A stretch of DNA of 45,651 nucleotides from a virus. The notes under the pieces are model-generated. The model was not told the origin of the DNA, made no database searches, and saw only the letters and a list, made by a program, of their open reading frames with translations. The stretch spans positions 1-45,651 of IMG/VR virus record IMGVR_UViG_3300042527_000896; one strand, 5' to 3'. The translations under genes and the position numbers were made by a program. Of this stretch, positions 4,051 to 44,069 are shown in pieces. Every line of letters starts with the position of its first letter. The stretch's first letter is position 1.

Positions 4051-4782
4051 TTAAAATTTAAAAATTTCTTCAATACCTAATTCTTGGTTTTTATAAAATA
4101 TTACCATATGGGGATTTTCAGGAGAATTATCAGTAAAGTAATATAACGCCAAAGATAAACGTTCCAAATTGTCGGGACAATTAAGAGGAGTTGGGTGTCC
4201 GTGAAGAGCATTGTCGATGTCGAAAATAACCGCTCTATTGTATATAGGTTCAATTTCAACTTCTTTTTTCCAAGTTTCTTTATTCCATAGTTCGAGATTA
4301 CCCCCATACTCGGTTACCCAATTTTTATTTAAATAAAGTAATAAATTCAATCTTCTATGTTTTTTTGTACCTGGTTGTAAGTTGTAATCTTCATGAATTG
4401 ATAGTGAACCCCCTTTTTTTATTTTGTGAATTCCTCCACCAATCAAATAAGGGTCCCTGAAAAGATTATCTATACCCGTAAGACTTTGTAAGAATATTAG
4501 AAATTCCTTGGAATTTAGATATTCCATTAGAAGATTTGTTATAGGAAGTTTGTTCTTTATTTCTTGAGCGGTCGTGTCATGGTTTGGATAATAAAATTTA
4601 TTAATCTCATGTTCATTCACCCACTCAGTAGTATTATGAAACCAATCTTGATGGTTTTTGATTTCTTCCAAAACATTATCTAATAAAAATTCAGATAAAA
4701 AATTATCAATTATAATGTGAGGATATGGCTTGGCAGATAAAAACTGTGTTCTTAAATTATTCGCCAAATTTAGGTTTATCAT
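4051..4782 (-). CDS. 2-oxoglutarate/Fe(II)-dependent oxygenase, prolyl-hydroxylase-like
   Basis: Predicted non-haem iron dioxygenase of the prolyl 4-hydroxylase-like fold (243 aa). The iron triad is visible: H130-x-D132 in LSIHEDYN and distal H194 in NALHGHP. R208 in ERLSLALYYFT is the expected 2-oxoglutarate salt-bridge residue. RRLNLLLYLN at 143-152 and the GGNLELW turn are typical core strands of 2OG-FeII_Oxy_3-like enzymes. Proteins of this class hydroxylate proline or other side chains, and some modify nucleic acid bases; the substrate cannot be read from the sequence. Its 3' end lies just before the unknown gene at 4034, and its ATG at 4782 overlaps the RNase H stop by 4 bases (ATGA), so it is translationally coupled to the replication genes. 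Confidence 0.8.
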   Translation of the reverse strand: MINLNLANNLRTQFLSAKPYPHIIIDNFLSEFLLDNVLEEIKNHQDWFHNTTEWVNEHEINKFYYPNHDTTAQEIKNKLPITNLLMEYLNSKEFLIFLQSLTGIDNLFRDPYLIGGGIHKIKKGGSLSIHEDYNLQPGTKKHRRLNLLLYLNKNWVTEYGGNLELWNKETWKKEVEIEPIYNRAVIFDIDNALHGHPTPLNCPDNLERLSLALYYFTDNSPENPHMVIFYKNQELGIEEIFKF

Positions 4783-31056: not shown

Positions 31057-31455
31057 ATGAAAATATTTCCACCACAAAAAGTTTATGTCTCTGAAAGCAA
31101 AATTCATGGTATGGGTGTCTTTGCTTCCGAAACAATAGAACAAGGAGAAATCTTCGAAGTGACACCATTGTTAGATTTGAAAATTCCAAAAGGGGAGCTA
31201 AGTGGGTGTATGATTGATTACAGATTCAACTGGCCACAAGGCACAAATCCAGAACTTCAAGTTGTAGGGTGGGGATACGGTAGTTTATATAATCACTCCG
31301 AAACTCCAAATGCCGCTTGGAAATCAAACATGGATAACTTCACCTTCGAATTTTATGCCACCCGAAAAATAGAAAAGGATGAAGAAATCCTTGTTTACTA
31401 TGGTGATAGTCTTTATTGGAATGACGGAAGAGACCACGTCCAAATTAAATCATGA
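31057..31455 (+). CDS. SET-domain protein (predicted protein-lysine methyltransferase)
   Basis: A 132-aa single-domain SET protein. It shows VSESKIHGMGVFASETIEQG at 11-30 (the S-x-I-x-G-x-G-V-F-A opening), the pseudoknot motif GSLYNHSETPNAAWKS at 75-90 (N-H-S-x-x-P-N) and the closing FYATRKIEKDEEILVYYGDS at 99-118 with the catalytic-type Tyr. These match SET enzymes that transfer methyl from S-adenosylmethionine to lysine in proteins; small viral SET proteins are known from chloroviruses (vSET). The target is unknown. Its last four bases overlap the SNF2 helicase start (ATGA), so the two are translationally coupled. It is the first gene of a plus-strand cargo block that interrupts the neck genes. 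Confidence 0.85.
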   Translation: MKIFPPQKVYVSESKIHGMGVFASETIEQGEIFEVTPLLDLKIPKGELSGCMIDYRFNWPQGTNPELQVVGWGYGSLYNHSETPNAAWKSNMDNFTFEFYATRKIEKDEEILVYYGDSLYWNDGRDHVQIKS

Positions 31456-33206
31456 GTATAGAAGTTTCATTAGAATCTAAGGCACTTAGCATCCTTCAAG
31501 ATTACGAAGGGGCTAACAATTATATTTTAGAACTTAAAAGAAAGTCTCAAGTCAACAAAAAATTTTATCCAACAAGAAGTCAGTCTGAGTACATTATCAA
31601 TTTCCACGACAAGCAACCCAAGGTTGCTAAAAAATGGGTAATCTTGGACGCTTATTTTGCTCAAAAACTTGCGGATGATAAATTACTCACACAAGTACCT
31701 GAAAAAGTATGGGTAGAAAAACTTTTAGCGGAAAAAGAAAAGGCTTATCACATTTGGGGTAAAATCCAAGACTCAGAACAATTACACGAATTTTGGCTAC
31801 CAAAAGCCTCTCTCATCAAAGATAATACAGTCAAAGACGTTGTCATCGATTATTCAAAATATGAACATCGTCCACCTCTTACACATCAAAAAGAAGCAAT
31901 CCAAAAACTTGTAGAAAATAAAAAATATATTTTGGCTGATGATATGGGTTTGGGAAAAACTACGTCAACAATCATTGCTGCTTTGGAGTCAGGTGCCAAA
32001 AAGGTTTTAATAATTTGTCCCGCAACATTAAAAATAAATTGGAAGAGAGAGATTCAAAACTACTCCACCAAAAGTGTGTATATTTGTGAAGGGAAAAACT
32101 TTGAACCGAATCACGACTTCATTATAATAAATTATGACATAATAAAAAATTTCCATGACACTAAAAGAAAAAATGAATCGCAAATTGTTAGCGCCGATTT
32201 TGATTTGGTGGTTGTTGATGAAGCACACTATATCAAAAATGCTCAAGCTCAACGTACGAAACTAATCAATGATATTGTTAAAAAAGTCGATAGGTTGTGG
32301 CTTCTAACCGGAACTCCAATGACATCAAGACCAATTGATTATTATAATCTATTGAATTTGGTTGATTCCCCCGTGGCAAAAAATTGGATGGCATACGTTA
32401 TTAGATATTGTTCCGGTTATCAATTTAGAGTTGGTCCAAGAAAGGTGTGGAACGTGATGGGGGCATCTAATTTGGAAGAACTAAGAGACAGAACGTTAAA
32501 TTCAACTTTGAGGCGGTTGAAGGAAGATGTTTTAGATTTACCTGAAAAAATTATTACCCCCGTATACTTGAGATTAAAATCCAAAATATATGAGGAGGTT
32601 ATGGGTGAGTATTATAATTGGTATGAAAAAAATCCTGACGAATCGAAATCACTAACTGTTCAGTTCACAAAACTCACAAAGGTTAGACAGATTTTGGCGG
32701 ATGAGAAAATTGAAAAAACAATTGAATTAGCAGAAAACATTTTAGAACAAGACAAAAAAGTTATAATATTCTGTAACTTCACAAATTCATTAAATAAGAT
32801 TACGGAACACTTTGGAAAATCTGCCGTCAAACTCGACGGCTCAATGTCTAAAACTGAAAGACAATTCGCAGTGGACCAATTTCAAGAAAATGAAAAAGTT
32901 AAAGTTTTTGTGGGAAACATCAAGGCAGCTGGTGTTGGTATAACACTTACCTCAGCAGAAGCAGTTATAATGAATGATTTGTCATTCTTACCATCAGACC
33001 ATTCACAGGCGGAGGACAGAGCTTACAGATTCGGGCAAAAGAATAACGTCTTGGTTTATTATCCCATTTTTGAAAACACCATTGAAGGAATAATATACGA
33101 TATTCTCAATAACAAAAAAAATGTAATTGCGACAGTTATGGGAGATAACAATCAAGTCGATTACGTCGAAGAAATTTTACAAAGAATAAATGAATTAAGA
33201 AATTAG
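31452..33206 (+). CDS. SNF2-family helicase/translocase
   Basis: A 584-aa two-lobed ATPase. Residues 1-130 are a separate N-terminal region. The motor has a Q-motif-like LTHQKEAI near 143, Walker A ADDMGLGKTTST at about 162-173, ICPATLKINWKREI (motif Ia), DLVVVDEAHYIKN with DEAH at 256-259, LLTGTPMTSRPID (motif III), and in lobe 2 KVIIFCNFTNSLNKI, VFVGNIKAAGVGITLTSA and SQAEDRAYRFGQ. DDMGLGKT plus the final arginine-finger motif indicate the SNF2 rather than the UvsW/RecG type. Single-polypeptide SNF2 proteins such as SMARCAL1/HARP anneal or remodel DNA; in a phage, roles in fork repair or stripping proteins from DNA are possible. It is coupled to the SET gene. Confidence 0.9.
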   Translation: MSIEVSLESKALSILQDYEGANNYILELKRKSQVNKKFYPTRSQSEYIINFHDKQPKVAKKWVILDAYFAQKLADDKLLTQVPEKVWVEKLLAEKEKAYHIWGKIQDSEQLHEFWLPKASLIKDNTVKDVVIDYSKYEHRPPLTHQKEAIQKLVENKKYILADDMGLGKTTSTIIAALESGAKKVLIICPATLKINWKREIQNYSTKSVYICEGKNFEPNHDFIIINYDIIKNFHDTKRKNESQIVSADFDLVVVDEAHYIKNAQAQRTKLINDIVKKVDRLWLLTGTPMTSRPIDYYNLLNLVDSPVAKNWMAYVIRYCSGYQFRVGPRKVWNVMGASNLEELRDRTLNSTLRRLKEDVLDLPEKIITPVYLRLKSKIYEEVMGEYYNWYEKNPDESKSLTVQFTKLTKVRQILADEKIEKTIELAENILEQDKKVIIFCNFTNSLNKITEHFGKSAVKLDGSMSKTERQFAVDQFQENEKVKVFVGNIKAAGVGITLTSAEAVIMNDLSFLPSDHSQAEDRAYRFGQKNNVLVYYPIFENTIEGIIYDILNNKKNVIATVMGDNNQVDYVEEILQRINELRN

Positions 33207-33240: not shown

Positions 33241-34779
33241 ATGTTAGAAATAGAAAAAAAAATATCACAACTCGAATTTAGGATTTTAGAGAATCACATA
33301 AACAAAGAGAAAGAGTTGTTACTTACAGAAATGAAAAAAATAGGGATTGAAAAACTCCCATATTCTTATTCAGCCCTCAAACAATTTATTGACCCTGAAA
33401 CAATGGATTTCCATTATAATAAACATTATAAAGGATACGTTGATAAATTAAATGATGCCTTAGCTAAGAAAAAATATGGTGATTTAGAATTAGAACAAAT
33501 TATCAAATCGATAAGTAGATTTGACAAAACAATCAGAAATAATGCTGGTGGGGCATTTAACCACGCATTGTTTTGGAACATGCTGACCCCAAACCCCAAA
33601 AAATTAACAGGAATACTTTACGAAAAAATTGTGAAGGAGTTTGGTTCATTCACCTCATTCAAGAAAAAATTCGAAACAGTAGCTAAAGACAGATTTGGTT
33701 CTGGTTGGGTATGGTTGGTTTTGACAGCAAAAAATAAACTTAAGATAATGTCTACCCCAAACCAAGATAACCCATTGATGAATGTCATCGAAGGTGGGGG
33801 TTTTCCAATTTTAGGATTAGATTTGTGGGAACATGCTTATTATCTGAAATACAAAAACAAAAGAGATGAATATATTTCTAACTTTTGGAAAGTTGTAAAT
33901 TGGGATTTTGTGACAAAACTTTATGAAATGAAGACCGAAACCAAGCTTTTGGAAACCCAAGAAATCAGAAAATTAATTAACGAATCTAAGGAGCCTAAAT
34001 TTTGTAACCCTAAAGAAACAATATCTTATAAAGCAGTAATAGATAATCCAAAATTGAAAAGAATTTACCAAGACGGTATAACAAAAGTATTAAAAAAGAT
34101 ATTCGGTGAATTTTGGGTTGAGTCTGAAAAAGGGGAAATGTCTGGATTTTACGGTATCGAATCAGAACAAGGAAGGTCGATTTTGAATAACTTGAATACG
34201 AATTTCAATACATTTTGTTTACTAACAAAGGCTATTAATAAAGAAATCTTGACAGAAAAACCTGATGGAAGGACCTTTGATTTTTCTCAAGAAAAAAATA
34301 GAACTTTGGAAGAAATGAATAGATTCATCAAAGTTTTAGACATTTTCAGAAAAAGAATTTTCAATAAGAACAACGAGGACTTCATAAACATAATAAATGT
34401 TTTGAGTAAACTTTGGAAAAGAGGACAGAAGTCTGAAGATAACGCCCTGAAGAAAATGGAAGATTATTTTGGTAAAGACGTAGAAATAGAAAAACTCGGA
34501 GCTCATGGTAGTAAAAATGATGCTTTGAAAGGTATAGACCTGAAAATCAAACTATCCGGTGATTCTTTCACTGCACAAGTGAAACCATATTCTGTTTTTT
34601 CTGTTATCAAAGATAAAATTGAATTATTAGATACGGGTAATGTAAAACCTTACGATGTAGACTGGTTGATTTTTATTCAACCAAAATCCAATAAAACGTT
34701 AATATTTAAGAATAAACCATTGAGTAGTGAAGGACAATACGTTTTTAACGTGGAGTCACTAATTCATGAAATTGAATAA
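33241..34779 (+). CDS. Fe/Mn superoxide dismutase fused to a nuclease-like domain
   Basis: A 512-aa fusion. Residues ~38-230 are a full iron/manganese superoxide dismutase: LPYSYSALKQFIDPETMDFH, then NNAGGAFNHALFW, FGSGWVWLVL and GLDLWEHAYYLKYKNKRDEY. All four metal ligands are present (H58, H108, D194, H198). Residues 1-37 are a charged helix not found in ordinary SODs. Residues ~240-400 are helical and unrecognised. Residues ~400-490 (AHGSKNDALKGIDLKIKLSG, followed by DSFTAQVKPYS) resemble a PD-(D/E)xK nuclease core: D433, then Q446-V-K448 on the next strand, then a helix and a hydrophobic DWLIFIQ strand. The SOD half converts superoxide to peroxide and oxygen; the C-terminal function is inferred. 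It lies between the SNF2 gene and a neck gene. Confidence 0.8.
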   Translation: MLEIEKKISQLEFRILENHINKEKELLLTEMKKIGIEKLPYSYSALKQFIDPETMDFHYNKHYKGYVDKLNDALAKKKYGDLELEQIIKSISRFDKTIRNNAGGAFNHALFWNMLTPNPKKLTGILYEKIVKEFGSFTSFKKKFETVAKDRFGSGWVWLVLTAKNKLKIMSTPNQDNPLMNVIEGGGFPILGLDLWEHAYYLKYKNKRDEYISNFWKVVNWDFVTKLYEMKTETKLLETQEIRKLINESKEPKFCNPKETISYKAVIDNPKLKRIYQDGITKVLKKIFGEFWVESEKGEMSGFYGIESEQGRSILNNLNTNFNTFCLLTKAINKEILTEKPDGRTFDFSQEKNRTLEEMNRFIKVLDIFRKRIFNKNNEDFINIINVLSKLWKRGQKSEDNALKKMEDYFGKDVEIEKLGAHGSKNDALKGIDLKIKLSGDSFTAQVKPYSVFSVIKDKIELLDTGNVKPYDVDWLIFIQPKSNKTLIFKNKPLSSEGQYVFNVESLIHEIE

Positions 34780-34786
34780 ATATTGA

Positions 34787-34793
34787 TATTTAT
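34787..34793 (+). promoter_or_regulatory. TATTTAT element just before the gp13-like gene
   Basis: Plus-strand TTGATATTTATAGATATG places the core four bases before the ATG at 34798, the same close spacing as before the genes at 25357, 31011 and 39510. Confidence 0.35.
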
Positions 34794-34797
34794 AGAT

Positions 34798-35925
34798 ATG
34801 GCAGTAATTCCAGAACCAGAAAGAACCAGAATATATACGAGAATCAAACACCTTCTCGGTGCCCCGTTAAGGAGCGTCGAATTAGAAGATGAAATGTTAG
34901 ATTCCTTAATGGAACTATCCATCGGTGATTACGAAGAATACGTTCTACAATGGTTAATTGATAGTCAATGGGTTAACTTAGTAAACCTCAACATGTCTGA
35001 AAAATCAGTTGCTCAAGCTTTGATTACTAGGACCATGGATTTCGAACAACAATTTGCCTACTCATATTCTAAAATTGTGGGACTACAAACTGTGGGACCT
35101 TGGGTGTTGAAAAAAGATTATTTTATTCTCGAGGCTAACAAACAAAACTATGAAATCCCTGCTGGACGTGAAGTTAACGAATTACTTTGGTTCAGTAACC
35201 AACCTTGGACAGCATTTGGTTTAGGTGGTGTTGGCGGATTCGGATTTGGTGGAATAGGATTAGGTGCTAATGAAGCCGGATATGCTCAAATGGGATACCA
35301 AGGTTCATATTTTATGATGTCTGGTTTTGACTATTTGATTAGAATGCAAGAAGCCAATATCTTAAATAGAATTTTAGGGGGGTCATTAACATATAGAATA
35401 ACGGCCCTTCCTGATGGCAAGAAGAACATTTTCTTATATAATACGCCAGGTGGAAGATTCAATTGGAGCAACTACAGTCTATACGCTGGTAAAGCAGTTT
35501 GGTATTGGTATTATGATGTAAATCCTGATAACAGAGCAGATTGTTTGAAAAATAACCCTGATGTTATTAAGTTACCAACAGATGTTCCCATCTCTGAATT
35601 ATCTTGGGAGGACTTGAATGTCCCTGGTCAACAATGGGTTAGAAGATGGTTTACTGCTTATTGTAAAGAAACGTTATCTCGAGTACGAGGTAAGTACATG
35701 GGTAACTTGAAAACTCCTGATACCGAAATTCAAATGGAATATCAGAGTTTGTCAACTGAAGCAAAAGACGAAAAGGCGAAACTTTTAGAAGAACTCATCG
35801 GTGAGAACGGATGGTTGTCAAGACTTAGACCTGAGAAGGTTATGGAGCGAGAGGCATCTATAGCTGAAAACTTAAATAAACAAATGAAATTCAGAGCGTT
35901 CCCACGTCAAATTTATGTAATCTAA
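34798..35925 (+). CDS. Probable neck protein, T4 gp13-like
   Basis: A 375-aa structural protein. The start is ATG 34798 (MAVIPEPERTRIYTRIKHLL); an in-frame TTG at 34783 lies inside the upstream motif. Residues 1-60 are a helical segment with LGAPLRSVELEDEMLDSLME, like head-tail connector proteins, then an aromatic middle (QWLIDSQWVNLVNLNMSEKS), a Gly-rich stretch (GLGGVGGFGFGGIGLGANEA at about 140-160), and a C-terminal W-x-x-x-W-F-T-A-Y segment running into VRGKYMGNLKTPDTEIQMEY. This resembles T4 gp13-type head-completion/neck proteins. Its position, on the other strand from the other neck genes and following the cargo genes, is unusual. The identification is by pattern only. Confidence 0.5.
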   Translation: MAVIPEPERTRIYTRIKHLLGAPLRSVELEDEMLDSLMELSIGDYEEYVLQWLIDSQWVNLVNLNMSEKSVAQALITRTMDFEQQFAYSYSKIVGLQTVGPWVLKKDYFILEANKQNYEIPAGREVNELLWFSNQPWTAFGLGGVGGFGFGGIGLGANEAGYAQMGYQGSYFMMSGFDYLIRMQEANILNRILGGSLTYRITALPDGKKNIFLYNTPGGRFNWSNYSLYAGKAVWYWYYDVNPDNRADCLKNNPDVIKLPTDVPISELSWEDLNVPGQQWVRRWFTAYCKETLSRVRGKYMGNLKTPDTEIQMEYQSLSTEAKDEKAKLLEELIGENGWLSRLRPEKVMEREASIAENLNKQMKFRAFPRQIYVI

Positions 35926-36260
35926 TGGCAATCGTAAGAAGCATACCATCAAGAAGAATTATAAACGGACATTCTATACAAACTTCCGAAATTTCTGTAG
36001 TTTCTGAACTTAATTATAAAACTAACGGAGAGTCTTGCGTTATCATCCGAGGTGTTGAAGAATCTTTCGTTGTATTAGATTCCACAACTACTGACCACGT
36101 TGTTGTAAAAGCAATGACATACCTCACTGTCACACCTGATGTTGGAAAAATTGACGAAGAATATGATGAACTTGTTATGGACAAATTTGCCTGTGTTGAA
36201 TTCAGATTTGCCAACAACAATTGGTATATTCTTTCATCAGACGGATTGAAACAATCCTAA
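35925..36260 (+). CDS. Small unknown virion-type protein
   Basis: A 111-aa protein starting in the stop codon of the gp13-like gene (TAATG, one-base overlap) and ending 24 bases inside the convergent polymerase gene. It is beta-rich and Thr/Val/Ser-rich (SFVVLDSTTTDHVVVKAMTY, then LTVTPDVGKIDEEYDELVMD), with a final FRFANNNWYILSSDG strand pair. Such a pattern is common in small phage structural or decoration proteins, but I do not recognise a family. Cotranslation with the neck gene suggests a virion role. Confidence 0.6.
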   Translation: MAIVRSIPSRRIINGHSIQTSEISVVSELNYKTNGESCVIIRGVEESFVVLDSTTTDHVVVKAMTYLTVTPDVGKIDEEYDELVMDKFACVEFRFANNNWYILSSDGLKQS

Positions 36261-39035
36261 TTTTTGTTCCCAACCATCCTCAGCTAATTCGTAAATATAA
36301 TTCGGACTTAGTCCTCTTTTTTCCCAATAAGATAACTCTTGTTCAGTTATTTGTAGAACGTCCTCTTCAAGTTTATCTTGGTCACCTTCTTCAAAGGGCA
36401 TACCGTTGATTAATTCACATTGAGCGTTCGTGAATATACCACGGGATTCTGGGTCTGTTACAATTAAATTGTCTCTAACTTCTTGTTGAAAGACAACCAA
36501 TAAAGGTTCGATTCTTTTGTTGAAAGTTGCGATAGCTCGAGGAACATTGTACTCACCTGTCATCTCTGGATTAGTTTCCAAAATATTAGAATTAAGCATA
36601 TAACAATTAACAATTACACCATCAGAAATTGGTTTGTAATTTGGATTGAGGTTTAAGTTGTATTCGTTTGTTTCCTTAATTTGTTTAGCGGTCATTTTTT
36701 GTACATCACCTTGAGACGCCTTTTTACCATTGTTTACGTACATAATAACATCCCCAAGATTAACATTCAAACCCTCTTGTATTGCTAATTCCATATGCGC
36801 CATACGACTCATACTATTTCCAGCCTTAGTTTTTTGTGTTAACCTTTTTTTGTAGTCATCTAAGGTTAGTTTAACTTTTGCTCGTTGGGCAATTTTAGAT
36901 AATGGAACTTGTTGGTCAAATATCTTTTTCAGATACTCGTAGTAATATTCAATGAAGTTTTTACCATCACCATTCAACAAAAGTTTAATTCCTTTGTCCA
37001 AGAATTCTTCAATATATAAAGGGAGTTTTTTTGATTTAATGGAATTGCCAGTCAACTTTATCTTTCCCTTAGCATCCATAACTGCGTAATTTTTTCTGGC
37101 AAGATTTATACAGGATGGCCATACACCATCGGTATCTAACGCCATTTCACCTCTCATGAAAATATCATTATATTCTGCCACGTCAGCGTCGGGACCAGTA
37201 TATTCTTTTCCTACTTTAACTTTCCAGTTCAAACCCCGGCCAACGTAACGATGATTTTCTACTCCTTCAGGACTTGAAAAGTTTACACCGTCCGTATCCA
37301 TAACAAGTGGAACGTATCCTTTTGACATAAAGAATTTAATCATCTGTCTCAAGTACTGACGACCTGTACATGTAATTTGTTCACCCATGTACATATCACC
37401 CCAAGCATAAACCTGTGGTGCTGACAACGCACCGAACATTGAGTTAATGAAAATCTTGATTGGAAGTTGTTTGTTTGAATATGAAGAAGAAAGTGCTGGG
37501 TCAGTTGTATAATACTCTTCGGCAAGTTGTTTATACTTAATACGAGTATCACGGAAATACTTCAACATTCCTTTCATCGCACCTGTCACATCACACTGTG
37601 GGAATACATCGTGTACGAGCTGAATAGAGGGGTATAGAGACGAGAAGTCGAGCTTGAGTACATTCTTACTATACCCAACCTTAAGTAGTCGAGAAAGACC
37701 TCCTACGAAGTCTGTCTTGTCTTGTTTGGCCGGGATTGCTAAACCGTGTTTATATGACCATGCCAACATTAACATTTTCCAAAGGGTTGCGGTTCCCATA
37801 GTTGATACCCTTTCATATGTTGTTGGAATCATTGAAGCAAGTAGGAATGAGGCTTGATTGAACTCTTTATCCACCGCTAATGTTTCTTCCAAGTCATCGT
37901 CAAGATATCTTTCGACTAAATTATCTCCGGTCGTTTTTAAATAAATGTCTGAACGACTTTCACATATAGTGTCAATCTTAGTATCTTGTCCAACTTTGCG
38001 GTAGTTACCGTTCTGAATATTCAACCAATACTCTTCTTTTTTTTCATACATTTTTCCAATATGGCCGTGGTCAATGTAAACTCGGTCTTTGGCTTCTTTG
38101 CCAATAAATGTGGTTATGTATTTAAGTCCCGCAGCTTTGATATTCGAATTGATTGCCTGAGCTCTTCTGACTGCGTGAATAATATCAATAACATTATACC
38201 CCCAAATTGAAGTCTGAGTATAATCCTCCACCTCATTTGCCAATTTCAATATTGATTCTTTTCTTGTGTACGAATGTTGGGGGTGAAGTGATTTTATCGA
38301 CTTCCTCATATCTATTCCTAATCTCTGACCTCTCTCGAACAACCAATGCCAGTCGAAGTTTGCTGAGTTGTAACCTCCAATGATTGAAGGTTTTATTTGG
38401 TCGATAACATTAAAAAACTCGATGATTGCTCCCTTTTCTTGGGACTCGTCCAAACACTCAATGACTCTGTGAAAACCTTTGTTTGTTTTGATTCCAATCA
38501 TAAAAATTCGACCATCTTTAGGGTCCAAAGCATTTGTCTCCAAGTCGAATACCAAACGTGTCACATCATCATAATCAGTATATCCTTTGAATAGCCTTTT
38601 TTCCTTTGAAACAAGATATTGTTCAACGGGGGGTAAAACCATAACTTTATCTTTGGTTTTTTCTCCCCAAGGGTCACAACCACCGTCACGGAAAAATTGT
38701 ATAAGCTCACGATATCCCTTCAGAGATTTTACCATAAAGGTTAAACCTTTCTCAAGTCTTTCGTCACCTTTAGTCTCGAGCTTATCAATAACAATTCCAT
38801 ATTTTGTCATAGCCTCTTTTTGAGCCATTTTGGAGTTGTTATAGAAGTTGAGACCTCTTAGGTCACCAACCCAAGCAAAAGGGATGAATGTATCTTTACG
38901 AATTTCTTTTCCTTTACCAGGAATTTCTTTGATTTTAAAAATGGAGTTTGAAACGTAGTCAAACTCGATAGCAACTATAAATTCTTCGGGGTCGTTTCCA
39001 TGTAGGAACGACTCAATTTCTTGAGGGTCAATCAT
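36237..39035 (-). CDS. Family B DNA polymerase (T4 gp43 type)
   Basis: Replicative polymerase with proofreading exonuclease, 932 aa (T4 gp43 is 898). Exonuclease motifs: Exo I LVFDLETNALDPKDG near 161-175, Exo II IGGYNSANFDWHWLF near 219, Exo III ERYLDDDLEETLAVD near 375. Polymerase motifs: A LKLDFSSLYPSIQL near 460-472, B PIKIFINSMFGALS near 525-538, C PLVMDTDGVNFSS near 573-585. The C-terminus ends LGLFQSV; in T4 the extreme C-terminus binds the sliding clamp. Convergent with the neck genes, overlapping by 24 bases. The 97-base leader has a TATTTAT motif and a small hairpin. No clamp or clamp-loader gene is in the window. Confidence 0.93.
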   Translation of the reverse strand: MIDPQEIESFLHGNDPEEFIVAIEFDYVSNSIFKIKEIPGKGKEIRKDTFIPFAWVGDLRGLNFYNNSKMAQKEAMTKYGIVIDKLETKGDERLEKGLTFMVKSLKGYRELIQFFRDGGCDPWGEKTKDKVMVLPPVEQYLVSKEKRLFKGYTDYDDVTRLVFDLETNALDPKDGRIFMIGIKTNKGFHRVIECLDESQEKGAIIEFFNVIDQIKPSIIGGYNSANFDWHWLFERGQRLGIDMRKSIKSLHPQHSYTRKESILKLANEVEDYTQTSIWGYNVIDIIHAVRRAQAINSNIKAAGLKYITTFIGKEAKDRVYIDHGHIGKMYEKKEEYWLNIQNGNYRKVGQDTKIDTICESRSDIYLKTTGDNLVERYLDDDLEETLAVDKEFNQASFLLASMIPTTYERVSTMGTATLWKMLMLAWSYKHGLAIPAKQDKTDFVGGLSRLLKVGYSKNVLKLDFSSLYPSIQLVHDVFPQCDVTGAMKGMLKYFRDTRIKYKQLAEEYYTTDPALSSSYSNKQLPIKIFINSMFGALSAPQVYAWGDMYMGEQITCTGRQYLRQMIKFFMSKGYVPLVMDTDGVNFSSPEGVENHRYVGRGLNWKVKVGKEYTGPDADVAEYNDIFMRGEMALDTDGVWPSCINLARKNYAVMDAKGKIKLTGNSIKSKKLPLYIEEFLDKGIKLLLNGDGKNFIEYYYEYLKKIFDQQVPLSKIAQRAKVKLTLDDYKKRLTQKTKAGNSMSRMAHMELAIQEGLNVNLGDVIMYVNNGKKASQGDVQKMTAKQIKETNEYNLNLNPNYKPISDGVIVNCYMLNSNILETNPEMTGEYNVPRAIATFNKRIEPLLVVFQQEVRDNLIVTDPESRGIFTNAQCELINGMPFEEGDQDKLEEDVLQITEQELSYWEKRGLSPNYIYELAEDGWEQKLGLFQSV

Positions 39036-39526: not shown

Positions 39527-41203
39527 TTATGACTCTTTACGAAGTTCCCTACTATAATGTTCGAATCTATTGTGTTCCGTTGGAGTCAACAATAAAATAC
39601 CAGGTTTGATTTCTTCTTTTTTAGTGAGCTGATAGATGTGACTCATCCAAGTCTGTTCGAATGGATGTGCCCAAGTTGTATCCAAGAACATCTTTTTATT
39701 TCCTGTTTTAGACACTATTTGAGGCCAATTACAGTAATAAACATCACCTGTCGCATACGGTACACCTTTATGAGACAAAATATTTTTGAATTCCATTTTC
39801 GGGGCATTAGGGTCCAATCCCATCTCAGGTAATCTATTTTTCCCAGGCCAAAACTTTTCTCTCACATTCTGAGGAACATTATACCAAGACCACTGAACAC
39901 TGTTATCACCAAAAAACTCTGTATAATTTAATTTTATAAAGTCAAAATTTTCCTTTTTGATAATTTCTAAAGACTTAGTGTATAGGTTTGGTACTTTTCT
40001 ATTGAACCCATTCCTACAAACCTCTCCGTCTTTACAGAAGAAAAACATATCGTCCTCGAAAAAAAAGTAAAAATCTAAATCTGGTTCATCCTCAAAATGT
40101 TCCGCAATCCATTGTCTACCTCCACAAATACCTAAATTATCTTTTTTTATGTGTTCGAAGCCATATTCGTGACAAATACGAATATAATCAAAAGTTGTTG
40201 ATGTATCTGTAGAATTATCTAATAAAAACTTTTTCGTTTTTAAAATAAAGTCTTTATCGTATTCCATCATAGAATCAATCAATGTTTGGAATTGTTTTGG
40301 ACTATTGAAACCTATAACATAAAGGCCAACCTTACTAATATCCAAATTTGAGACGCCTACCGTAGATGTTTCATTTTTTGGAACAAGTTTGTCATCTTTC
40401 AAATCTTCAAAAAACTTACCCACCAATCCGTTAGATTCAATTTCGAAGTAGTTTATTAAATCAGCATGTTTGTAACACATAATACTGAAAATAGATTCTT
40501 CAGTACCCATGTAACCTTCCTCTAAAGTTGATTTTAACAAACCGTAATATATTCCGTTAATGTTTGATATGGAATCTTTAGGACCACCAAAAAATCCTCC
40601 TCTAGCAACCTTATTAACCTTAGAGCCGGCAATTGAGTTTAGTTTTGAATATTCAAATCCATGGATTTCATTTTCAGCATCATACGGGAAACAAATGAAA
40701 GAAAATTTAGAAATATATTTTGATAGTTTATCTAAAACTTTATCGTGTGTGAAATATCCCGGATGAACTGTATTTGTTAATCCACCGTCAATCCAAAATA
40801 GATATTCAGAATCAAACCTATCAAGGATTTTAGCGTCGTTAAGGAGAAACACTTTTGACATCACAAGTGGGTTGTAATTCTCCAATCTAGCTTGGGTAGA
40901 ATCTTTCAACCAACCCGATAAGTTTTTCCAACTGTCCTTATTTCTAATTTCTTGAATCAATGGAAAAAATTCATTATTTCTGAACCAAGAGAGAGGTCTT
41001 TCTATAAACTGAGTATTTTTTTCAGTTCTTTTTTTAAAAACAATTTCTTTTAATTCTTTATCACCATAAATAATCATATTGACATCCACATTGAGTAGAC
41101 TGTCAAACTTATCCAAATAGTGTTGATAAGGTCTTGACCAACCTTCTGAGAGGGATTCTCGTCCGATATCCCAAATACCTGTAACAAGTGTTATATTACT
41201 CAT
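39527..41203 (-). CDS. Two-domain glycosyltransferase (HtrL/WlaTC-like plus GT-A-like)
   Basis: A 558-aa fusion. The N-terminal ~285 residues look like HtrL/WlaTC-type sugar transferases: TLVTGIWDIGRESLSEGW, then YLFWIDGGLTNTVHPGYFTH near 133-152 and ARGGFFGGPKDSISNINGIY. The C-terminal ~270 residues are a second unit with VGLYVIGFNSPKQFQTLIDS at its start and LDFYFFFEDDMFFFCKDG near 378-395, a likely metal/nucleotide-sugar binding acidic motif of a GT-A fold. It probably transfers sugars to a virion protein or to surface glycans. Its start overlaps the 293-aa gene by 8 bases. Sugar donor and acceptor are unknown. Confidence 0.7.
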   Translation of the reverse strand: MSNITLVTGIWDIGRESLSEGWSRPYQHYLDKFDSLLNVDVNMIIYGDKELKEIVFKKRTEKNTQFIERPLSWFRNNEFFPLIQEIRNKDSWKNLSGWLKDSTQARLENYNPLVMSKVFLLNDAKILDRFDSEYLFWIDGGLTNTVHPGYFTHDKVLDKLSKYISKFSFICFPYDAENEIHGFEYSKLNSIAGSKVNKVARGGFFGGPKDSISNINGIYYGLLKSTLEEGYMGTEESIFSIMCYKHADLINYFEIESNGLVGKFFEDLKDDKLVPKNETSTVGVSNLDISKVGLYVIGFNSPKQFQTLIDSMMEYDKDFILKTKKFLLDNSTDTSTTFDYIRICHEYGFEHIKKDNLGICGGRQWIAEHFEDEPDLDFYFFFEDDMFFFCKDGEVCRNGFNRKVPNLYTKSLEIIKKENFDFIKLNYTEFFGDNSVQWSWYNVPQNVREKFWPGKNRLPEMGLDPNAPKMEFKNILSHKGVPYATGDVYYCNWPQIVSKTGNKKMFLDTTWAHPFEQTWMSHIYQLTKKEEIKPGILLLTPTEHNRFEHYSRELRKES

Positions 41204-42077
41204 ATATTCTGTTAAATTCTTCTAAAATTCTATAAAAACTTTTATTTCTTTCGAAAAGTGTTGGGTCTGTTCCAGGGGGACAATTGTCAGGACACCACCA
41301 AATATCAAAATGTTTTCTCGTAAATAATTCAGGGTGATTATAATACATAAGAGTCATTATAATTTCTTCGAAATAAACCCTTTCCACAGGACTAATTTTG
41401 AAAACATAATCTTCGAAAATTGTTACCACATTATCCCATAAATCTCTATGACCACCAAACATACCACCTATAATGTGGATGTCTCTTTGATATTTGTTAT
41501 ACCATTTAGGGTCTACTGTACCCGACCAAAAGTTTCTGTCATTTTCTTTACCTAATATCAAAAATTTATTTTCAGAATCAGTCACTATATTCTTCAAGAA
41601 ATCATTATTAAATAATGAACTCTCATAATATCTCCTCTGTGGATGTTGACTTCCGGTTAAATATTTGTTCGGTATCAGACCACAGTGTGACAATCCAGCA
41701 TCAATCCAAAAGTAATAATCATACGATTTATCCTCATTCCACCACCAAGAAAACTTTGCCCATTGGATTTCAATACATCTATCACCTCTTTTAGCAGAAT
41801 CATAGTCTTTATATTTCTCGAGAATTTCTTGGAACTTTGTTTTTTTCAAATCATAAATTTTGAATTCTAACTTTTCTTCACTGATACCATGCTCTTGGTA
41901 GAAAAAATTTTTCAATCTTTCTATTTCTCTTTCTGAAGTATAACATAAGAAATCGGCGTCTGTCATTTTTAATAACGACAAAAGACTATATTGATAGTGG
42001 CCTCCTCTCGAAGGTCTCCCACCTAATTCAGTTCCTGACAGGTCGCTATATATACATGTGATAAATTTAACTCTCAT
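41196..42077 (-). CDS. HtrL/WlaTC-like glycosyltransferase
   Basis: A 293-aa protein related to the N-terminal half of the next gene: both have an F-W-I-D-x-G-L core (YYFWIDAGLSHCGLIPNKYL here, near 121-140) and an I-G-G-M-F-G-G loop (IHIIGGMFGGHRDLWDNVV). The N-terminal VKFITCIYSDLSGTELGGR fits the family opening. It is likely a second sugar transferase from the same ancestral gene. Its ATG overlaps the GT25-like gene by 11 bases. Substrate not evident. Confidence 0.65.
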   Translation of the reverse strand: MRVKFITCIYSDLSGTELGGRPSRGGHYQYSLLSLLKMTDADFLCYTSEREIERLKNFFYQEHGISEEKLEFKIYDLKKTKFQEILEKYKDYDSAKRGDRCIEIQWAKFSWWWNEDKSYDYYFWIDAGLSHCGLIPNKYLTGSQHPQRRYYESSLFNNDFLKNIVTDSENKFLILGKENDRNFWSGTVDPKWYNKYQRDIHIIGGMFGGHRDLWDNVVTIFEDYVFKISPVERVYFEEIIMTLMYYNHPELFTRKHFDIWWCPDNCPPGTDPTLFERNKSFYRILEEFNRIYE

Positions 42078-42801
42078 ATCTGTAGTCCTTATGAACTTTT
42101 TGTAATTTGATGTTTTTATTTTCTTGTAAATTTAAATATTCCCTTGGAATTTTTACCGGTGAATACTGATTCCAATTATAAGTTTGGGTATAAAAATTAT
42201 TATAAACTCCGCCAGAAACATCTGACCAGTCACTAATTTGAGGACCAATTGGTAAAATTGGAACATAGCTCTGATAAACAGAGGTCACATTTTGATAAAT
42301 GAAATCATCAATAGCGTAGTATCCAATTTTCGATGGTTCCTCGATTTCTAAAACCTTGTCATAAATGGACTCGTGGTACATTATCATGTTTGTTGCGAAT
42401 ATACCTCTATGATGTTCTTCTTTAGGAGGAAGATTAGTGGCATCCAAAAACCATTTAGAATTTGTACTTAGGTTTATTGGACGATTAATCGTTGGTGCTA
42501 AATTTATAACCGCAAATTCAATCCCTGATGATTCCGTTTCAATTTGTTGAACTAAAGACTTTGCGTAAGGCATGATTGTACAATCATCCTCGATAACTAG
42601 AACCTTTTTATACCCACGGGCTTTAGCCAATTTTATTATTTCCAAATGAGATTTTGTACAACCCACATGATTATTTAAATCGATTGCGGGAAAATACTCG
42701 TAGTCCCAACCGATATATTCCATTTCTTTTTTTATCGATTCAAACCTATCTTTTCTTCTTTCTAAATTAACAACAAATTTCGGTGCGTCTGAAAAAATCA
42801 T
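42067..42801 (-). CDS. GT25-like glycosyltransferase
   Basis: A 244-aa protein with the landmarks of glycosyltransferase family 25 (LPS-type and collagen galactosyltransferase-type): FVVNLERRKDRFESIKKEM near 9-27, the sequence VGCTKSHLEIIKLAKARGYK near 46-65, and KVLVIEDDCTIMP at 66-78 with the DxD-like EDD. Family members transfer galactose or related sugars. The start overlaps the GT60-like stop by one base (42801). It is part of the four-transferase run, tightly overlapped, so all are probably made together. Confidence 0.8.
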   Translation of the reverse strand: MIFSDAPKFVVNLERRKDRFESIKKEMEYIGWDYEYFPAIDLNNHVGCTKSHLEIIKLAKARGYKKVLVIEDDCTIMPYAKSLVQQIETESSGIEFAVINLAPTINRPINLSTNSKWFLDATNLPPKEEHHRGIFATNMIMYHESIYDKVLEIEEPSKIGYYAIDDFIYQNVTSVYQSYVPILPIGPQISDWSDVSGGVYNNFYTQTYNWNQYSPVKIPREYLNLQENKNIKLQKVHKDYRYES

Positions 42802-44069
42802 TAGCTTACATGATTGTGATTTAATTGTCCCGTCAGTCTCTCACACCAACCTTTCGATTCAGAGTGTGGCCAAACAACCCAATATTTTGGTAAAACATCA
42901 GTTTGGAATTCTCTCCATATTTTACAATACTTATCGGGGTCGTTCATCATTCTTGTGATTTCCGATTTATCGGCATCTTTTCTGAAGAGGGTCTCATCGT
43001 TGGGACCATGGAAAGCAACAACCCAAAAATCGTAGTCTTTTTCAGGGACACTTGAGTAACCTACGTCTATACAATGTTTGTAAACAGAAGCGAAATCCTT
43101 TTTCCAATCTTCCTCAGTTTCATAGTTGTATGGGTTAGGGGGGTAATTTTTGTCTAAAGTATATCTTTGAACTGCTCTTTTCTCGAAAAGTAAACCTGAA
43201 TATTTTTCATAATCTCTGAGCGTTCTCACGGGTCCAAAACCGAAAGGACCATCATGACCCTCTTGAGTTTCATTATCCATACCGAATAGCTTTCTATTTA
43301 ACAAGTGTGAAACTCTATTTTTTTCTCCCCATGTTCTATCATCGTCCCACTGTTTTGTTCTACCCTTACGAGTATATTCATGATACACAACAGGGATGTG
43401 AGGGTGAAAAAGGTCATAACCCCATGTATATGCTCTAGCTGCGATTGAAATTTCTTCACCGTGGAAATAATATTCAGGGTTATGTTGAACCTCTTTAGCA
43501 AAACTTCCCAATGTAAAACAGAAATGTGCCGAGTAAAATCTGGCAGTTACGGGTTTGGTCATTTCACGCCATCCAGGGATTGTCTCAGGTAAAAAGAATA
43601 CCGCACCTTCAGGTATAAATCTATCAAATACCATTCTCCAAGCGTCTTGAGCTCTTCCCGCTGGGTCATTATCAGGGTCGAAAGATGGTACATAACCCGT
43701 AAGTAGAGGTTTTTTGTATCCATCTTTTTGTAACCCCTTTATCATATCGATTAGGATTACATCCCAATCTTTAACGAATCTCATGTGAGAATCTATTTGT
43801 AATGTATATTTTTCATTTTTATATAGTTGTTGAACTAAATGTCTTGCCCAACAAACCCCTTTTGCCTCTTCGTAAGGAATGTCTAAAATTCTGAACCTTT
43901 TATCATCTCTCCACTCATCAAGGTTGTCAAATCCGTCCGATTCTGAATATTGTCTCGCAATACCTAAAACTAAGTTTTCGGGTTTCTTGGCATTTGCTAA
44001 CATATCTTTTATTGTTAGGACTAACTGTGGGTCGCGATAACTAGCAATCTGTATAAAAATTTTACTCAT
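42801..44069 (-). CDS. Skp1-hydroxyproline GlcNAc-transferase-like enzyme (GT60)
   Basis: A 422-aa protein opening KIFIQIASYRDPQLVLTIKD, then NAKKPENLVLGIARQYSESD, the signature of GlcNAc-transferase GT60 proteins (Pfam GlcNAc). YTLQIDSHMRFVKDWDVILI at 88-107 carries the D-S-H metal/donor motif, and YYFHGEEISIAARAYTWGYD near 200-220 the conserved HGEE loop. Characterised eukaryotic members add GlcNAc to a hydroxyproline of Skp1; prokaryotic and viral members have mostly unknown acceptors. It stands directly downstream of the Thr/Pro-rich protein gene and its terminator, heading the transferase operon. The family call is from motifs; specificity is not shown. Confidence 0.75.
   Translation of the reverse strand: MSKIFIQIASYRDPQLVLTIKDMLANAKKPENLVLGIARQYSESDGFDNLDEWRDDKRFRILDIPYEEAKGVCWARHLVQQLYKNEKYTLQIDSHMRFVKDWDVILIDMIKGLQKDGYKKPLLTGYVPSFDPDNDPAGRAQDAWRMVFDRFIPEGAVFFLPETIPGWREMTKPVTARFYSAHFCFTLGSFAKEVQHNPEYYFHGEEISIAARAYTWGYDLFHPHIPVVYHEYTRKGRTKQWDDDRTWGEKNRVSHLLNRKLFGMDNETQEGHDGPFGFGPVRTLRDYEKYSGLLFEKRAVQRYTLDKNYPPNPYNYETEEDWKKDFASVYKHCIDVGYSSVPEKDYDFWVVAFHGPNDETLFRKDADKSEITRMMNDPDKYCKIWREFQTDVLPKYWVVWPHSESKGWCERLTGQLNHNHVS

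Follow-up and report, generated by a model that had tools for sequence, protein, structure and literature searches.

Superoxide dismutases (SODs) of phages are usually taken as accessory genes, which aid the survival of the host under oxidative stress. In freshwater phages SODs were reported among the ROS-defence genes (Kavagutti et al., 2019; PMC6802176), and in the passages concerned a fused nuclease is not mentioned alongside them. The stand-alone SODs of Vibrio phage 2.275.O and of the Pseudomonas phages PA5oct and Callisto are, like the protein described here, Fe/Mn-SODs of large phages. They differ by a length of about 180-190 aa (27-32% identity) and by another gene context in the stretch shown, and no relative of the C-terminal unit described below was found in the records scanned. 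A closer case is the UniProt entry A0A6J5L953 (501 aa, uncultured Caudovirales phage, BFVD), annotated as “superoxide dismutase” only. It matched our model of the C-terminal half (288 columns, E 1.8e-15, 29% identity) and, judged from this match, its length, and its name, probably possesses the same, so far unremarked, fusion architecture. A description of an SOD-nuclease fusion was not found in the literature searched, which was covered in part, and nothing specific emerged there on phage-encoded SODs either. Both halves are of known kinds, while their combination appears to be undescribed in the papers searched and the nuclease family appears to be unnamed. A passage considered as literature support for a DNA-bound bacterial Mn-SOD concerned Dps and not SOD, and was set aside.

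Layout of the Fusion Gene

The fusion gene was found in a window of 45,651 nucleotides, which is the whole stretch of DNA analysed and corresponds to the IMG/VR virus record IMGVR_UViG_3300042527_000896. An uninterrupted ORF from ATG to stop was observed, encoding 512 aa, and the architecture of SOD, helical region, and C-terminal domain in a single gene is strongly supported. The gene is composed as follows.

33241..34779, plus strand: whole SOD-nuclease gene, 512 aa and a stop codon (ORF, 71 distinct fused homologues)
33241..33345, plus strand: N-terminal extension, aa 1-35, not covered by the SOD matches in Pfam and PDB
33346..33930, plus strand: Mn-type Fe/Mn-SOD domain, aa 36-230 (Pfam, PDB, and NCBIfam matches)
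33931..34365, plus strand: helical middle region, aa 231-375, nearly all helix in the AlphaFold2 model
34366..34776, plus strand: likely PD-(D/E)xK-like nuclease domain, aa 376-512 (invariant residues, fold matches), with the motifs G395-x3-E399, G431-x-D433, and Q446-x-K448

A preliminary description, made from the sequence alone, had proposed that an SOD is joined to an unrelated C-terminal half in one phage ORF, and had suggested an HMM search for the same domain pair in other phages. Scanning IMG/VR, 80 loci were found to match along the whole protein (one from residue 10) with the same 512-aa layout. Further scans brought the fusion to 71 distinct IMG/VR proteins, all of them collinear, and the two halves were not found as separate genes at any locus examined. 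Two genes, or a fusion created by the assembly, were ruled out by these 71 collinear proteins and 0 split loci, and the proposed single ORF was confirmed. The N-terminal extension showed 67% mean identity to its homologues, and the helical middle region holds a conserved EMSGFYG...SILNNLNTNFN stretch. The residue M230 (33928-33930) is invariant and lies exactly at the junction of SOD and C-terminal half, with an A-rich sequence upstream. It represents a possible, unproven internal start for a free nuclease of 283 aa; the conservation of synonymous sites around M230 was not raised.

The Superoxide Dismutase Half

The Pfam domains Sod_Fe_N and Sod_Fe_C were matched by aa 37-115 (E 1.4e-22, 80.4 bits versus a gathering cut-off of 27) and aa 124-226 (E 7.4e-40, 135.6 bits versus a gathering cut-off of 20.9), respectively, and a phmmer search of PDB matched solved SODs across aa 38-230 (E 1.5e-60). 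All four Fe/Mn-SOD ligands had been noticed earlier in the first half, and these residues, H58, H108, D194, and H198, were indeed invariant in 80 of 80 homologues, as were H62, Y66, Q175, E197, and Y201. The ligand motif pattern was present in each of the 71 distinct fused proteins. Following E. coli Mn-SOD, we take H58/H108/D194/H198 to be the metal ligands, H62/Y66 the gateway, Q175 the Mn-type Gln, and E197/Y201 the dimer bridge. Q175, a Gln from the C-terminal SOD domain, suggests the Mn type. As far as its residues tell, the SOD half is a canonical Mn-type Fe/Mn-SOD with an intact active site. With other Fe/Mn-SODs (PF00081/PF02777; closest solved structures 6gsc and 5a9g) the fusion shares the full domain, the four ligands, the gateway His/Tyr, the Mn-type Gln, and the Glu-His dimer bridge. 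It differs from them by the 35-aa N-terminal and the 282-aa C-terminal helical-plus-nuclease extensions, and in being a core phage gene.

The C-Terminal Half

The PD-(D/E)xK superfamily is very diverse, and a match to a family profile is supportive rather than defining. For the C-terminal half no significant match was found in Pfam, NCBIfam, PHROG, PADLOC, or the PDB sequences. An alignment of 28 sequences was used, comprising 26 fused proteins and two SOD-free proteins from phages of 634 kb and 735 kb. Within the C-terminal domain, invariance was limited to G395, E399, G431, D433, Q446, and K448. E399, D433, Q446, and K448 were invariant in the fused clade and in the distant SOD-free homologues, and the numbering of D433 and K448 given in the preliminary description was correct.

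When aa 231-512 were modelled with AlphaFold2 (mean pLDDT 82, pTM 0.69), a mixed alpha-beta domain was seen after the helical region; for the C-terminal domain alone a pLDDT of 83 and a pTM of 0.75 were obtained. The modelled core consists of a helix and then three strands; the long helix bears E399, the second strand D433, and the third strand Q446-x-K448. The usual second core helix was absent and beta structure was found instead. In a fold search of PDB, PD-(D/E)xK nucleases were the only matches above background, with weak scores, and no non-nuclease fold ranked above them. The best fold matches, with a TM of about 0.4, were I-Ssp6803I (2ost), the SPARDA nuclease chains (9qcc, 9jsz), and a Holliday junction resolvase from Thermus phage 15-6 (7bgs, 7bnx). 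The match to I-Ssp6803I had an E of 2.7e-3 and a Foldseek probability of 1.00 for the model of aa 231-512, and an E of 0.02 and a probability of 0.99 for the domain alone.

The nuclease-like D...QVK pattern recognized earlier was supported by the invariant E/D/QxK residues and the nuclease fold matches, with Gln at the third motif position (QxK). In place of the second PD-(D/E)xK core helix that was expected, the models contained beta structure. Since the nuclease fold scores were modest and this helix was missing, the fold alone would not settle the identity as nuclease; the residue conservation is the strongest evidence for it. The E399/D433/QxK layout likely represents a PD-(D/E)xK active site in a QxK variant, and the C-terminal domain is likely a PD-(D/E)xK-type nuclease. 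Compared to the solved PD-(D/E)xK nucleases, G-x3-E on the helix, G-x-D on strand 2, and Q-x-K on strand 3 are shared, whereas the fusion differs by the lack of a sequence match, by QxK for the common ExK, by the attached SOD, and, in the model, by beta structure replacing the second core helix.

Conservation and Gene Neighbourhood in Phages of About 320 kb

The phages carrying the fusion form a clade of giant aquatic phages of about 320 kb. A complete-looking 321-kb genome (G001), in which a direct terminal repeat of about 200 bases was read, and seven other records contained one Sod_Fe_N match each, always inside the fusion, and no other SOD. In nearly all loci whose contig reaches far enough, the genes for SNF2 helicase, SOD-nuclease, neck protein, small protein, and family-B DNA polymerase followed each other in this order. 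In the window the following neighbours were identified.

31057..31455, plus strand: SET-domain protein (Pfam SET 2.6e-13), upstream of the helicase
31452..33206, plus strand: SNF2-family helicase (Pfam SNF2-rel_dom 5.5e-28; phrog_62 DNA helicase 9.4e-113), directly upstream of the fusion gene with a 34-nt gap
34783..35925, plus strand: neck/head-tail adaptor-like gene (phrog_211 head-tail adaptor 7.6e-09), downstream of the fusion gene
36237..39035, minus strand: family-B DNA polymerase (phrog_262 4e-53, synteny), convergent conserved neighbour

The true start of the neck gene is probably the ATG at about 34798, because a relative begins with MAALPEPER. The single fixed copy and the kept gene order indicate a core gene of the clade and not a drifting accessory gene; the fusion is a fixed core gene of these phages. 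Mean identity to the window protein was 58% for the middle region, 65% for the nuclease, and 89% for the SOD half across the clade. The helicase, neck, and polymerase neighbours were mostly 78-92% identical and are slower-evolving than the middle and nuclease parts. In view of this faster divergence of the middle and nuclease parts, an arms-race role fits as well as a core role.

Membership in a defence system was considered and rejected, with no PADLOC match for the fusion. An assignment of the helicase as ZorD, DpdE, or DrmD was likewise discarded; the likeness was that of an SNF2 helicase only, with scores well under the equivalog cut-offs of NCBIfam.

Relatives without SOD in Other Phages

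In the 735-kb phage LR756501 a protein of 290 aa was found to match both the nuclease and the helical region before it (E 2.7e-13 by HMM; a probability of 97% by hhalign, across 225 columns), and in the 634-kb phage LR745206 a protein of 251 aa (locus L154, 5494-6249) matched the nuclease part. Direct searches of IMG/VR found no close relatives of these two proteins. Via a later mixed alignment an IMG/VR contig (locus L177) was obtained, which encodes an SOD-free relative of 288 aa with the nuclease motifs GNLAE, GVD, and QCK and with 66% identity to the protein of the 735-kb phage. All three SOD-free proteins carry the same nuclease key residues as the fusion. The proteins of LR756501 and L177 also have the helical region in common with it, and the SOD domain is absent from all three. 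Searching the records of LR756501 and LR745206 for Sod_Fe_C, none was found. To reach distant QVKPY nucleases a degenerate DNA pattern was applied to IMG/VR, and gave no matches. Two genome-contig scans found no cellular relatives of the C-terminal half, with short exact patterns which distant relatives could escape. A further UniProt entry, A0A8D9CCA0 (1113 aa, uncultured marine phage), matched the helical-plus-nuclease model (BFVD, E 5.4e-13).

Because SOD-free relatives exist in other megaphages, the nuclease would be older than the fusion. In the simplest reading it is the older unit, to which the SOD was added in the clade of about 320 kb; a loss of the SOD in the SOD-free relatives would be the alternative direction of change and is formally still conceivable.

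The genes next to the SOD-free nucleases were inspected as well. In LR745206 a DNA polymerase-like ORF (by sequence) adjoins the nuclease gene, and no SNF2 helicase was found beside the SOD-free relatives in the stretches read. In the 735-kb phage a SET gene (locus L175, 2951-3388, minus strand) adjoins the nuclease gene, and its product is 46% identical to the SET protein of the window. A SET (lysine methyltransferase-like) domain is unusual for a phage; here both phages, that of the window and that of 735 kb, encode one close to the nuclease gene.

Proposed Function and Alternatives

The place beside helicase, neck gene, and DNA polymerase, together with the SOD-free relatives, points to an old nuclease of phage DNA metabolism. 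No matches to EndoVII, RuvC, RusA, Hjc, or T7 EndoI were found in the genomes of about 320 kb, although divergent resolvases could escape Pfam, and the lack of a known resolvase family would leave the position of a resolvase unfilled. Among the few solved structures above background was the Holliday junction resolvase of a phage (7bnx/7bgs), with weak scores. Our tentatively preferred reading, plausible although still short of probable, is that an old giant-phage nuclease with an acquired SOD forms a dimeric processor of branched or damaged DNA, which acts with the SNF2 helicase while superoxide is removed on site. The old nuclease, made up of the helical region and the PD-(D/E)xK-like domain, would have gained the N-terminal Mn-type SOD in the one clade of about 320 kb. 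The SOD half would form its usual homodimer, so that two nuclease domains come to lie next to each other, and would remove superoxide where the nuclease acts on DNA. Branched or damaged phage DNA may then be processed by resolution or trimming, together with the helicase encoded upstream, during recombination-dependent replication and before packaging. Both halves are presumably catalytic. Against this reading stand the weak fold scores with the missing core helix, the faster divergence of the middle and nuclease parts, to which a host-directed or counter-defence nuclease would correspond as well, and the SOD-free relatives, beside which no SNF2 helicase was found in the stretches read. A wider formulation, a bifunctional redox-coupled nuclease fixed in the clade of about 320 kb, in which an active Mn-type SOD and a new family of PD-(D/E)xK-type nucleases are combined, with superoxide removed on site or the nuclease tied to the oxidative state of the infected cell, is possible and more doubtful.

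We consider it unlikely that the nuclease attacks host DNA, either for nucleotides or as counter-defence, with the SOD shielding phage and cell from the resulting or the host superoxide. Such a role would agree with the many ROS-defence genes including SOD reported for freshwater phages (PMC6802176). The C-terminal half also diverges faster than the neighbouring core genes, and other large phages possess stand-alone SODs. However, the fusion is present in a fixed single copy and lies in a core block of conserved synteny rather than in a variable region, and the reported ROS-defence role leaves the fusion to a nuclease unexplained. Fe/Mn-SODs form dimers or tetramers and PD-(D/E)xK enzymes often act as dimers, which favours an SOD that mainly serves as a structural dimerisation module borrowed from a host, its enzymatic activity being incidental. 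The SOD-free homologues, which show that the nuclease has no need of SOD chemistry, speak in the same direction. We nevertheless regard this explanation as quite unlikely, as ligands and second-shell residues are all invariant and the 89% identity of the SOD half, far above that of the other half, argues for selection on catalysis.

The better conservation of the SOD, the weak fold scores, and the missing core helix could also be understood if the SOD did the work and the C-terminal half were a non-cutting DNA-binding anchor which brings the SOD to the phage DNA. A mere anchor would have no need of a catalytic set, yet E, D, Q, and K are kept while nearly all else drifts, also without the SOD, and an anchor function appears very unlikely. 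Least probable by far, in our estimate, is packaging, with the protein injected alongside the genome for early action on host DNA or on the oxidative defence. The gene lies beside the neck gene and near tail genes, and the homologue of the 634-kb phage begins with MKKFTEYIKE, which we take to resemble T4-type capsid-targeting leaders and which, as a lead only, makes a virion protein possible there. Of the roles suggested in the preliminary description, which were protection of DNA, a counter to an oxidative host defence, and a packaged effector, the last gained no support: a loose scan for N-terminal leaders in a complete clade genome, a weak test, did not pick out the fusion.

The locking of an SOD to a probable DNA-acting enzyme in a core block suggests a physical link between the removal of superoxide and the DNA handling of the phage. 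Behind an automatic “superoxide dismutase” label of a phage protein a second enzyme can be hidden, and a hitherto unnamed family of megaphage nucleases, with members with and without SOD, becomes defined.

Further Observations on the Phage Genomes

Adjoining the DNA polymerase, HtrL_YibB-like, GT25-like, and GlcNAc-transferase-like genes were found in the window (39527-44069, minus strand), for which functions in glycosylation are suggested. A protein with a 2OG-Fe(II) oxygenase domain (Pfam 2.2e-18) is encoded within the replication gene cluster (4051-4782, minus strand). Shine-Dalgarno motifs were nearly absent (3% of genes) and A-rich positions were observed 11-12 bases upstream of the starts; a Bacteroidota host is weakly suggested. 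In G001 (locus L162, 5442-5835) a tmRNA gene with the tag AEEATVVA was detected by ARAGORN near about 24 clustered tRNA genes.
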